DNA of 64,000 nt from Gemmatimonadaceae bacterium (GTDB taxonomy: Bacteria > Gemmatimonadota > Gemmatimonadetes > Gemmatimonadales > Gemmatimonadaceae), in contig DATLUQ010000029.1 of assembly GCA_035533015.1 (NCBI GenBank), positions 62,001 through 126,000 on the forward strand, in the 5' to 3' direction. Of the stretch, positions 218 through 22,000 are shown piece by piece; the stretch's first letter is position 1; every line of letters begins with the position of its first letter. Below the pieces are notes generated by a model. The model did not search any database and was not told the origin of the DNA. It worked only from the letters and a program-made list of their open reading frames with translations. A program made the translations under genes and the position numbers.

Positions 218-1696
218 ATGGCCATTCCGATCGCAGCGCGTGCCGCCGAGTTTGGCACGCTCGACACGCCGCTCCTCGCCATCGCACTCGGCGCCGGTGA
301 TGCGCTCCCGCCCGCGCTCGCCCCTGTGGACGCGGCCACCCTCGGCGCGATCGGCCGCGCCCTCGCATCGCGTGACTTCCGCGGCGGCCGCGATGAAGTC
401 CTCACGCTCGCCGGCGGCGCGCAAGGCATCCGCCGCGTGCTGCTCGTGGGCACGGGAAAGCCGACGCGGCGCACCGACGCGCTGCGCCGGGCCGCCACGC
501 TGGCGGCCCGAAACGCGGCCCGGCTGGGCACCGGCGCCATCGCCTTCTACGCCGGTCCACTCACCGCCGCCGAGTCCGAAGCCGTGACCGTGGGGCTCAT
601 CGCCGGCGGGTGGCGCTACGACGACGTCAAGACGCCGCCGCCGGCCGATGAACGGCGCGCCGCGCTGGCGGCCGGCACCGTCCTCGCTCCCGACCTTGCG
701 GCCGCCGAGCGCGGCGTCGTGACCGGAACGGCGATCGGCGAGGGCCAGTCGCTGGCCCGCACGCTCGGTATGATGCCGGGCAATCTCTGCACGCCTGATT
801 TCCTCGCCGACACGGCGCGTGACATCGCCAAGCGACACGGCTTGCCGTGCACGGTGCTCGGCCGCGCCGACATGGAAAAGGAGGGGATGGGGTCGTTCCT
901 GGCCGTGGCCCAGGGTACGCCGCAGGACCCCAAGCTCATCGCGCTCGAATACCGGAAGGGCCCCAAGAACGGCAAACCGGTGGTGCTCGTCGGCAAGGGA
1001 CTGTGCTTCGACTCGGGCGGTATCTCCATCAAGCCGGCCGCGAGCATGGAATGGATGAAGTACGACATGTGCGGGGCAGCCGGCGTGCTGGGCGCCATGG
1101 AGGCGATCGCCCGCCTGGGGCTCGCCGTGAACGTGGTTGGCCTCGTGGGCTCCACCACCAACATGGTCTCGGCCACGGCGGTCAAGCCGGGCGACGTGGT
1201 GAAGAGCCACCTGGGCAAGTACATCGAGATCATCAACACCGACGCCGAGGGGCGGCTCGTGCTGGCTGACGTCCTGTCGTACGCCCGCCGCTACGAACCG
1301 ACGGCCGTGATCGACGCGGCCACGCTCACCGGTGCCTGCGTGATCGCGCTTGGACACAGCGCCACGGCCGTGCTCGGCACCGACCGACAGCTCGTGCAGG
1401 AAGTGCTCGACGCCGGCGACCGGTCGGGCGAACGCGGCTGGGAGTTGCCGCTGTGGGACGATTACAAGCCGCTCATCAAGTCCGAAGTGGCCGATATCAA
1501 GAACGTCGGCGGCCGCGCGGCGGGAACGATCACGGCCGCGCTGTTCCTGGCTGAATTCGCCGAGGCGTTCCCGTGGGTTCACCTCGACATCGCCGGCACC
1601 GCGTATAGTGAGACCGATCTGGTGACCATCCCCAGCGGCCCCACGGGCGTACCGGTGGGCATCTTCGTCGAGTTCGTGCGGGGGCGGGCGAGCTGA
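218..1696 (+). CDS. pepA: Leucyl (cytosol) aminopeptidase, M17 family
   Basis: A 492-residue protein of the usual PepA length. The C-terminal catalytic half carries the two-metal signature: VGKGLCFDSGGISIK at about residues 258-272 (catalytic Lys and metal Asp) and NTDAEGRL at about 340-347 (the M17 hallmark with metal Asp and Glu and the nearby Arg). The N-terminal third is the variable macro-like domain. It should remove N-terminal residues from peptides in the cytoplasm, using Zn or Mn. The ATG at 218 follows a 42-base gap after icd. The stop at 1694-1696 may overlap the start of the outer-membrane protein gene that follows. Confidence 0.96.
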   Translation: MAIPIAARAAEFGTLDTPLLAIALGAGDALPPALAPVDAATLGAIGRALASRDFRGGRDEVLTLAGGAQGIRRVLLVGTGKPTRRTDALRRAATLAARNAARLGTGAIAFYAGPLTAAESEAVTVGLIAGGWRYDDVKTPPPADERRAALAAGTVLAPDLAAAERGVVTGTAIGEGQSLARTLGMMPGNLCTPDFLADTARDIAKRHGLPCTVLGRADMEKEGMGSFLAVAQGTPQDPKLIALEYRKGPKNGKPVVLVGKGLCFDSGGISIKPAASMEWMKYDMCGAAGVLGAMEAIARLGLAVNVVGLVGSTTNMVSATAVKPGDVVKSHLGKYIEIINTDAEGRLVLADVLSYARRYEPTAVIDAATLTGACVIALGHSATAVLGTDRQLVQEVLDAGDRSGERGWELPLWDDYKPLIKSEVADIKNVGGRAAGTITAALFLAEFAEAFPWVHLDIAGTAYSETDLVTIPSGPTGVPVGIFVEFVRGRAS

Positions 1697-5564: not shown

Positions 5565-6785
5565 ATGAGTCTCGCGTCCCCTCGGCCCTACGCGTCGCGC
5601 CGCGTTCTGCTCGGCGTCACCGGCGGAATCGCCAGCTATAAGTCCGCCTGGGTGGCGCGTTTGCTCACCAAGGCGGGCGTCGAGGTGGACGTGGTGATGA
5701 CCCGCGCCGCCACCGAATTCGTGGGGCCGGTTACGTTCGAAGCCCTCACCGGCCGGCCCGTGCATACCGAGCTGTTCGACCCCGGCCACGCCCTCGAACA
5801 CATCACCCTCGCCCGCCAAGCCCACGCAATCGTCGTCGCGCCGGCGACGGCCGACTTCCTGGCGCGCGCCGCCTCGGGACAGGCCGACGACCTCCTCACC
5901 GCCTGCCTCCTTGCCGCCACGTGCCCGGTGCTGCTCGTGCCGGCCATGAACGACCGCATGTGGGCACACCCGCAAACCCAGCGCAACGTGCGGCACCTGG
6001 CGGAACTCGGCTACCACGTCCTGCCGCCGGACGAGGGCCTGCTCGCGGTGGGCGAGGGCAGCGGCCCGGGGCGTATGCCGGAACCCGAGACGATCGTCGC
6101 ACACGTGGGGCGCCTGCTCGAGACGCGCGGGCCACTCACCGGCAAGCGCGTAGTGGTCACCGCCGGACCGACTCGCGAGGCGATCGACCCGGTGCGATTC
6201 ATCTCCAACCACAGCAGCGGCAAGATGGGCGTGGCCGTCGCCGCAGCCGCCTGGCGGCGCGGGGCCGACGTGGAATTGATCGCCGGGCCGCTGTTGGTCG
6301 AGCCTCCCGTGGGCCCGCGGGTCACCCACGTGGAGACCACGGCCGAAATGGCCGACGCGGTGCGGCGTGCGCTGGGAGCCGCCGACGCGCTGGTGATGGC
6401 GGCGGCGCCCGCCGACTTCACCCCGGCGCACGTGGCGACGTCCAAGATCAAGAAGGGCGCCACGGCGCCGACGCTCACCCTCGATTTCACGGTGGACATT
6501 CTGGTCTCGACGCGCAGCGCGCGCCGGCCGGGGAGCGTGATCGTCGGATTCGCCCTCGAAACGAACGACGTGCTCGCACACGCACGCGCGAAACTCGACG
6601 ACAAGGAACTCGACCTGATCGTCGTCAACGACGCCACCGAGCCGGGCGCGGGGTTCGGCGTGGACACGAACCGGGTCACGCTGCTCGATCGCGCGGGTGG
6701 AGAGACCCGCCTCGACCTCATGCTCAAGACCCAAGTGGCCGAGGCCATCCTGGACCGCGTAGAGGGAATGCTCGGTGGACGCTAG
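5565..6785 (+). CDS. coaBC: Bifunctional phosphopantothenoylcysteine decarboxylase / phosphopantothenate-cysteine ligase
   Basis: 406 residues from the ATG at 5565. An N-terminal flavoprotein decarboxylase half has GVTGGIASYKSAW and PAMNDRMWAHPQTQRN (the Cys-active-site flavodoxin fold, CoaC). A C-terminal ligase half has VVTAGPTREAIDPVRFISN, NHSSGKMG and AAAPADF (CoaB). Together they convert 4-phosphopantothenate to 4-phosphopantetheine in CoA synthesis. The reading frame is open upstream into rpoZ, but the homologous protein starts at MSLASPRPYASRRVLLGV. It overlaps the following glycosylase gene by 11 bases. Confidence 0.95.
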   Translation: MSLASPRPYASRRVLLGVTGGIASYKSAWVARLLTKAGVEVDVVMTRAATEFVGPVTFEALTGRPVHTELFDPGHALEHITLARQAHAIVVAPATADFLARAASGQADDLLTACLLAATCPVLLVPAMNDRMWAHPQTQRNVRHLAELGYHVLPPDEGLLAVGEGSGPGRMPEPETIVAHVGRLLETRGPLTGKRVVVTAGPTREAIDPVRFISNHSSGKMGVAVAAAAWRRGADVELIAGPLLVEPPVGPRVTHVETTAEMADAVRRALGAADALVMAAAPADFTPAHVATSKIKKGATAPTLTLDFTVDILVSTRSARRPGSVIVGFALETNDVLAHARAKLDDKELDLIVVNDATEPGAGFGVDTNRVTLLDRAGGETRLDLMLKTQVAEAILDRVEGMLGGR

Positions 6786-7755
6786 GGAGCAACTGCGACG
6801 GTACCTGGAGCAGCGCCGAGAGATGGGCGAGTCGGAACTCGTGCTCGATAATCTCTCGGTGGAGGACGCCCTGCGTCTGCTCGGCGCCGGGAACCCGGTC
6901 CCGGGGGGCAGCGCCGACTGGCGCGCCACGCTCAAGCAGGCGGGCGCGACCCCTGGCGATGCGGCCCCGGTCAAGCCTCCGCCGCGCCAAACACAGCCGC
7001 CCGCCCGCGAGCACGAGCCGGCCCCCGAGGCGCGGAACGCGCCGGCCGTCGATCCGATGCGCAAACGCGGGGCCTTCGAGCCGCCGCGGGCCCAACCCCA
7101 GTCGACGGCAGCCCCCACCGGCGCTCCGCCCAATGGACTCGTCGTGGGGAATAGTTCGCGCGAACTATTCGGCGCCCAGCAGCAGCCGCAGTACGGCACG
7201 TTGGATGAGATCGCCAGAGCGGTGAGTTCCTGTACCAAGTGCGCGCTCCACAAGGGGGCGCGAAACGCGGTGCCCGGTGAAGGCAGCCCGAATGCCGCCC
7301 TCATGTGCGTGGGGGAGGCGCCGGGCGCCACCGAGGACGAGACCGGGAGGCCCTTCGTGGGGCAGGCAGGCCAACTCCTCACCAAGATCCTTGCCGCGAT
7401 CGACCTGAAGCGCGAGGATGTGTTCATCGGCAACGTGCTCAAACACCGCCCGCCCGGCAACCGCAACCCGTTGCCGGACGAAGTCCGGGCCTGCAGCCCG
7501 TATCTGATCCGTCAGATCGAGTTGATCCGGCCCAAGGTCATCCTGGCGCTGGGTACGTTCGCCGCGCAGACGTTGCTCGAAACGAAACTCACGATTGGGA
7601 AGCTCCGGGGACAGGTGCACCGATACTATGGCGTGCCACTGATCGTCACCTATCATCCGGCCGCCCTGCTCCGAAACCCCTCTTGGAAGCGCCCTACCTG
7701 GGAAGATGTCCAGCTTGCCCGCCGAATACTCGACGACACCATCGCCCGTGGGTGA
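6775..7755 (+). CDS. Uracil-DNA glycosylase, family 4-like, with N-terminal extension
   Basis: 326 residues from GTG 6775. Residues 1-38 are helical (REQLRRYLEQRREMGESELV); 40-135 are Pro/Ala-rich linker; the glycosylase domain begins near 140. Motif 1 is GEAPGATEDETGRPF and motif 2 is YHPAALLRNPSWKR, both typical of family 4 (thermophile-type) enzymes that excise uracil from DNA. The iron-sulfur ligands are C153, C156 and C240, but the expected third Cys (usually KCRPPGNR) is H224 (KHRPPGNR). The spacing to C240 is kept. The KHRPP motif is distinct from the UdgX KRRIH-type signature. The gene lies between coaBC and dnaB and overlaps both. Confidence 0.9.
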   Translation: MDAREQLRRYLEQRREMGESELVLDNLSVEDALRLLGAGNPVPGGSADWRATLKQAGATPGDAAPVKPPPRQTQPPAREHEPAPEARNAPAVDPMRKRGAFEPPRAQPQSTAAPTGAPPNGLVVGNSSRELFGAQQQPQYGTLDEIARAVSSCTKCALHKGARNAVPGEGSPNAALMCVGEAPGATEDETGRPFVGQAGQLLTKILAAIDLKREDVFIGNVLKHRPPGNRNPLPDEVRACSPYLIRQIELIRPKVILALGTFAAQTLLETKLTIGKLRGQVHRYYGVPLIVTYHPAALLRNPSWKRPTWEDVQLARRILDDTIARG

Positions 7756-18592: not shown

Positions 18593-18949
18593 ATGACCAA
18601 AGCTGATCTGGTTGAGCACGTCACGACGCAGATTGCCCGTACCGCCGGGCCGATGATATCCAAGAAGGACTGCGCCAGGGTCGTCGACGCCTTTCTCGAT
18701 GCGATCAAAGAAGCGCTGCACGATCAGAAGAACATTGAGGTGCGCGGCTTTGGCACGTTCAAGATCCGCCACCGCAAGACACGCATGGCGCGCAATCCCC
18801 GCACCGGCTCTCCCGTGGAAGTGTCGGCCCGCCCCGTTCCCGTGTTCAAGCCTTCCAAGGAGTTGCGCGCCATGGTGGCGGACATCGAGATGGACGATCT
18901 GGACGACGACGAGGACTCCGCCGATTCCATCAAGGCCTCCAAGGCGTAG
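18593..18949 (+). CDS. HU/IHF family DNA-binding protein with acidic tail
   Basis: 118 residues. The DNABII fold is complete: TKADLVEHV, VVDAFLDAIKEAL, IEVRGFGTFKIR and the arm tip ARNPRTGSPVEV with the intercalating Pro. After FKPSKELRAMV the protein carries an extra 20-odd residues rich in Asp and Glu (MDDLDDDEDSAD), absent from classical 90-residue HU. It should bend or compact DNA as a dimer. Wording of the arm (NPRTG) is IHF-like, but the family cannot be split further by eye. Confidence 0.93.
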   Translation: MTKADLVEHVTTQIARTAGPMISKKDCARVVDAFLDAIKEALHDQKNIEVRGFGTFKIRHRKTRMARNPRTGSPVEVSARPVPVFKPSKELRAMVADIEMDDLDDDEDSADSIKASKA

Positions 18950-19041
18950 TCGTTGCAGCGCTTACATGGTCGCCTCGTCGCTTCATGCCGGGGCGATTCG
19001 TTTGTGTGGCCCTCACGCTGCCCGCGTGGACCGTATCGCGT
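18950..19041 (+). other. Intergenic spacer, no gene recognised
   Basis: About 90 bases after the IHF/HU-like gene. I see no convincing terminator, RNA gene or small coding region here; the regulatory elements of moaD begin directly after it. Confidence 0.5.
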
Positions 19042-19059
19042 GAGGTAAGTGCTTACCTC
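19042..19059. promoter_or_regulatory. Perfect 18-bp palindrome, candidate operator of moaDEA
   Basis: GAGGTAAG and CTTACCTC are exact reverse complements separated by TG. The right arm overlaps the predicted -35 of the moaD promoter. No T-run follows, so it is not a terminator. Position and symmetry suggest binding of a dimeric repressor; the factor is unknown. Confidence 0.6.
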
Positions 19060-19081
19060 CCGACACCCGTTCCGATAGCAT
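19053..19081 (+). promoter_or_regulatory. Promoter for moaDEA, predicted leaderless
   Basis: -35 TTACCT (19053-19058), 17-base spacer, -10 TAGCAT (19076-19081). The expected transcription start at about 19088 coincides with the moaD ATG at 19089. No ribosome-binding site is visible. Confidence 0.45.
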
Positions 19082-19088
19082 TCGCTCT

Positions 19089-19331
19089 ATGACGTTGCGC
19101 GTGCTGCTGTTTGCCTCTTACGCCGATGCGCTCGGCGCCTCGGAAATCGACGTGGACCTGCCGGCGGGTGCGACGGTGCGCGATCTGATCGCCTCTGTGC
19201 ACCGGCGCGCGGGGAACGGTCGGATCCCGCCGTCTCCGCTGGTGGCCGTGAACCAGCGTTACGCCTCGCTCGATACGCCGGTGTCCGCAAGTGACGAAAT
19301 CGCGATCATCCCACCGGTCGCCGGCGGCTGA
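19089..19331 (+). CDS. moaD: Molybdopterin synthase sulfur carrier subunit MoaD
   Basis: 80 residues with the ubiquitin-like ThiS/MoaD fold: VDLPAGATVRDLIASV, LVAVNQRYA, DEIAIIPPVAGG. The C-terminal Gly-Gly, the site of adenylation and thiocarboxylation, is intact. It donates sulfur to precursor Z in complex with MoaE, whose gene follows with a one-base overlap (TGATG). Confidence 0.93.
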   Translation: MTLRVLLFASYADALGASEIDVDLPAGATVRDLIASVHRRAGNGRIPPSPLVAVNQRYASLDTPVSASDEIAIIPPVAGG

Positions 19332-19773
19332 TGCGCAGCGCGATCGTCGACCGCCCGCTCGCCCCGACCGCGCTCGTGGCCGAAGTCTCGGCGCCTGACT
19401 GCGGCGCCGTGGTGCTGTTCGTTGGCACGGTGCGCGACACGAATGACGGGCGCGCAGTCACCGGCATCGAATATTCGTCGTATCGCACGATGGCCGAGCG
19501 CGAACTCGCGACGATCGTGGATGAATCCGCCACGCGGTTCCATGGCGCGCGGGTGGTTGCGGAGCACCGCGTAGGAATGCTGGGCCTCGGGGAAGCCAGC
19601 GTGGCGATCGCCGTGGCTCACGGGCACCGTGGCGCCGCGTATGAGGCTTCGCGCTACGTGATCGAGGAGATCAAGCGCCGGCTTCCGATCTGGAAGCGCG
19701 AGCATTACGCCGACGGCACGCGGGAATGGGTGCACGCCAGAAGCGGAACGGCGCGCACCCCGGAGCCGGTCGC

Positions 19774-19777
<4 letters not shown>
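19331..19777 (+). CDS. moaE: Molybdopterin synthase catalytic subunit MoaE
   Basis: 148 residues. Core motifs are GAVVLFVGTVRDTNDGR, YSSYRTMAERELA, VAEHRVGMLGLGEASVAIAV and the catalytic-region VIEEIKRRLPIWKRE with two Lys and the final Trp/His-type YADGTREWVHA. It forms the dithiolene of molybdopterin with MoaD. It overlaps moaA by 4 bases (GTGA). Confidence 0.95.

Positions 19778-22000
<2,223 letters not shown>

Follow-up and report, generated by a model that had tools for sequence, protein, structure and literature searches.

An ordinary leaderless promoter of the sigma-70 type probably drives the moaDEA operon, and the perfect palindrome on the conserved −35 region of this promoter is likely a coincidence and not a selected repressor operator. 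Because the palindrome has a single copy in the genome and is absent from the related species examined, we regard the conserved part as the promoter and the symmetry as most likely accidental. This is a case in which a striking promoter palindrome dissolves on comparison with close relatives, while the conserved leaderless promoter remains. The features are listed below. Positions are those of the window, which is the whole stretch of 64,000 nucleotides that was analyzed.

18593 to 18949, forward strand: gene for an HU/IHF-family DNA-binding protein, upstream of moaD
18970 to 19005, forward strand: probable intrinsic terminator for HU, located between the HU gene and the moaD promoter; stronger versions in congeneric species
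19042 to 19049, forward strand: GAGGTAAG, the left palindrome arm; unconserved within the genus
19050 to 19051: centre, TG, between the palindrome arms
19052 to 19059, forward strand: right arm, CTTACCTC; contains the −35-like TTACCT (19053 to 19058), which four congeneric species keep as CTTWCC
19076 to 19081, forward strand: −10 element TAGCAT, 17 bp after TTACCT and 7 nt before the ATG
19089 to 19331, forward strand: moaD, ThiS/MoaD family; its mRNA is predicted to be leaderless and to start at the ATG or adjoining it
19331 to 19777, forward strand: moaE, molybdopterin synthase large subunit
19774 to 20757, forward strand: moaA, GTP 3′,8-cyclase

Conserved promoter upstream of moaD

An earlier reading of this DNA, made from the sequence only, had identified the three genes as moaDEA, and these identities are right. 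Nearly all relatives examined, across the taxonomic order, have the same gene order, HU-moaD-moaE-moaA. An HU/IHF-family gene directly upstream of moaDEA (window positions 18593 to 20757) is kept in relatives L008 to L036 and L091 to L110, which represent more than one family of the order.

The putative moaDEA promoter would be composed of the −35-like TTACCT, a 17-bp spacer and the −10 element TAGCAT, and transcription from it would begin at the moaD ATG or within 1–2 bases of it. TTACCT matches TTGACA at 3 of 6 bases. TAGCAT, which begins 13 bp before the ATG, matches TATAAT at 4 of 6. A consensus promoter scanner did not call the moaD promoter; the −35 is weak against TTGACA. No Shine-Dalgarno sequence was seen before moaD.

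We aligned the upstream regions of four congeneric species (this species, represented by one strain, and three others) without gaps, anchored on the moaD ATG. The four species have GCTTWCCY-N17-TASSAT-N7-ATG in common: the −35 element TTWCCY stands at the 17-bp spacing in each, and 7 nt separate the −10 from the ATG throughout. The mean pairwise identity was 0.83 for the −10, 0.77 for the right arm of the palindrome and 0.62 for the stretch from the −10 to the ATG; the neutral flanks gave 0.31 (far upstream) and 0.33 (in the −35/−10 spacer). The fixed position of the −10 and the lack of a visible Shine-Dalgarno sequence strengthen the earlier claim that the moaD promoter is leaderless, and we consider this claim correct; the transcription start and the use of sigma-70 are what we infer. 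The further claim that the right arm holds the −35 stands in part. TTACCT is loose when judged by the consensus and by the scanner, but it is backed by its conservation.

Zheng et al. (2011, PMC3160421) described TA-led leaderless bacterial genes, in which a TANNNT −10 is located about 12 bp upstream of the initiation codon. The moaD promoter resembles this class in the distance between TAGCAT and the ATG (13 bp), in having no Shine-Dalgarno sequence that could be seen and in the fixation of this arrangement in four species. For moaD, the start site is a predicted one. TANNAT shows a modest enrichment 4–7 nt before ATG codons in 464 kb of the genome, and a general −35 consensus sought from the TANNAT sites in these 464 kb gave no clear signal. 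Upstream of moaD in three relatives from other genera (L012, L022 and L029), TTTCC/TTCCG-like hexamers are present 17 bp upstream of TANNNT. These hexamers hint at a common −35 preference, of which the window's genome gave no general signal.

Comparison of the palindrome among relatives

The palindrome, GAGGTAAG-TG-CTTACCTC, is exact and occupies 19042 to 19059, as the sequence-only reading had reported; relative to the moaD ATG (19089) it extends from −47 to −30. Its pairing comprises 8 + 8 bases around a 2-nt centre and not 18 paired bases. In the alignment of the four congeneric species, the mean pairwise identity of the left arm was 0.25. The left and right arms pair at 8 of 8 positions here, as against 2, 1 and 2 of 8 in the three other species. 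Furthermore, a comparable palindrome on the promoter was found in none of the 47 relatives with a readable moaD upstream region; the repeats upstream of moaD in these relatives are mostly GC-rich stems, as expected for HU terminators. Conservation upstream of moaD in related genomes had been proposed as a test of the palindrome, and the palindrome turned out to be absent even within the genus.

We propose that the right half of the palindrome would be the conserved −35 region, and that the left half would be a species-specific sequence, which became the reverse complement of the right half either accidentally or through a local quasi-palindrome (template-switch) mutation. We infer that no regulator binds the palindrome. 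The moaDEA operon may be constitutive.

Chance expectation and further copies

The window has a GC content of 68%, and the numbers of inverted repeats expected in it were obtained from first-order Markov sequence. For arms of at least 8, we counted 31 perfect inverted repeats with spacers of 0–8 (21.3 ± 3.9 expected) and 13 with spacers of at most 2 (8.9 expected). Thus, perfect repeats of the palindrome's size are common in this GC-rich window, whereas tight AT-rich ones are rarer. The latter class (at least 8 A/T, spacer of at most 2) was drawn up post hoc after the palindrome had been seen; 3 such repeats were counted, where 0.43 were expected, in 76 kb of non-coding DNA taken from 464 kb of the genome by crude gene calling. 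The rarity of tight AT-rich palindromes in non-coding DNA here counts against coincidence, as does the position on the −35, where an operator would serve. The palindrome is mildly unusual for its place. However, when the search space is counted, it is not convincingly beyond chance, and by itself it is without significance. A stronger palindrome is present at 7149 to 7170 of the window: GAATAGTTCGCGCGAACTATTC, a perfect 22-bp palindrome with 11-bp arms and no spacer, lies within a called gene (6775 to 7755).

The sequence-only reading had also suggested a search for further copies and for a regulator with a copy in its own promoter. When up to 3 mismatches were allowed, the 18-mer matched only four weak places in the genome besides itself, fewer than a reversed-pattern control. 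The 12-bp core, with up to 1 mismatch, matched two other places, one beside exbD/tonB-like genes and one inside a riboflavin synthase-like gene, both with 1 mismatch. These full-site and core searches of the genome revealed no second full copy of the palindrome, no regulon and no self-regulated regulator that carries it. The same searches in 79 relatives gave no regulon; nearly all matches carried a mismatch, and none of those retrieved was at a moa locus.

In 257 Gb of sequence, GAGGTAAGNNCTTACCTC had 24 exact matches, where about 60 are expected from 16 fixed bases in uniform sequence; this is no more than chance. No match is close to moa genes, and 17 of the 24 lie within ORFs of at least 100 aa. 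The exact match in the viral collection falls within a phage-like ORF, and the matches in the viral and genome collections are scattered. A literature search for an operator containing GGTAAG/CTTACC found no paper.

Possible regulator binding to the palindrome

With a leader riboswitch excluded, the sequence-only reading had considered a protein repressor to be the natural explanation of the palindrome. The exclusion of a riboswitch alone does not demand a repressor, and the comparisons above speak against such an operator: the left arm is unconserved in the genus, the genome holds a single copy, and no self-regulated regulator carries the site.

The alternative that survives best, which we nevertheless consider unlikely, is a species-specific operator, at which a dimeric HTH regulator (of the HxlR, MarR, ArsR or TetR type, for instance) would bind the palindrome, cover the −35 and repress moaDEA. 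The perfect symmetry on the −35 and an AT-richness that is high for this genome are in line with this explanation. Even among species of one genus, transcription-factor sites can turn over, and no other copy would be expected of an operator with a single target. Moreover, the same 18-bp core is found within a longer palindrome beside HxlR genes in two genomes, so the core can belong to a plausible regulator site. However, a Pfam scan of the ten genes neighbouring moaDEA showed no HTH regulator, the two HxlR genes in the genome of the window have no similar palindrome beside them, and the window site corresponds to the inner 18 bp only, without the outer TACTT/AAGTA arms. A more specific version, in which an operator of the HxlR type or for another HTH protein evolved recently and privately in this species over the leaderless moa −35, and would thus place the operon under a protein repressor in a lineage that has neither ModE nor a Moco riboswitch there, has a still smaller chance of being right. 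Proof of an operator would mean that molybdopterin synthesis has a new mode of control in a group without ModE.

The longer palindrome was found in Flectobacillus sp. BAB-3569 and in a record named Cellulophaga sp. BC115SP. In these two HxlR-bearing genomes an almost 40-bp palindrome, ATACTTTCTTGGAGGTAAG-CC-CTTACCTCCAAGAAAGTAT, sits between divergent HxlR-family and DoxX-like genes and has the 18-mer as its core. At L073 (4272 to 4311) and L082 (7405 to 7443), the palindrome TACTTTCTT-S-GAGGTAAG-NN-CTTACCTC-S-AAGAAAGTA is conserved in two genomes and is a likely HxlR operator. The window site is like this palindrome in that it contains GAGGTAAG-NN-CTTACCTC. In contrast, it is 18 bp only and has no adjoining regulator gene. 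With the HxlR lead a private operator is possible, but the lead gives it no support.

RNA hairpin and known controls of molybdopterin genes

A role of the palindrome as an RNA hairpin in read-through transcripts from HU, as a 3′-end or a backup terminator, is very improbable. It does lie downstream of HU and before moaD, a 7-bp stem with a GUGC loop (−7.1 kcal/mol) is predicted, and two of the unrelated exact matches are located immediately 3′ of genes, as terminator stems would be. However, no U tract follows the palindrome, a terminator-like stem for HU is already present upstream of it, the whole leader folds no better than shuffled sequences (z = −0.21), and the congeneric species are without the palindrome.

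The preferred explanation, a leaderless promoter with a coincidental palindrome, was also compared with the known controls of molybdopterin genes. The ModE site has a consensus of the type CGNTATAT-N4-ATATANCG. No match to it within 3 mismatches was present in the window, and TIGR00637 had no match to a ModE gene in the genome. Therefore, the earlier statement that the palindrome does not resemble the ModE site is borne out. The sole TOBE protein is a WtpC/ModC-like transporter ATPase.

An Rfam search for the Moco riboswitch (RF01055) at the moaD locus gave no match even at E ≤ 1, and none was found in 20 moa loci or in the genome of the window, which agrees with the earlier exclusion of riboswitch control. 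Transcription of moaDEA from farther upstream, with a longer leader and a Moco-type riboswitch, is extremely improbable: such a riboswitch exists in the order, above the cut-off before a separate moaA, but the Rfam searches above were negative and four species keep the −10 at the same 7-nt distance from the ATG.

In E. coli, the long leader of moaABCDE contains a Moco riboswitch, and ModE and FNR also control the operon (PMC2408646). Like the E. coli region, the region analyzed here is the promoter of an operon for molybdopterin synthesis. Unlike it, the moaDEA operon of the window has no ModE match, no riboswitch and, as predicted, no leader. The Moco riboswitch of the order (46.5 bits) is at locus L134 of genome G061, before a stand-alone moaA (337 to 1491, minus strand), and no other was found among 60 genomes of the order.
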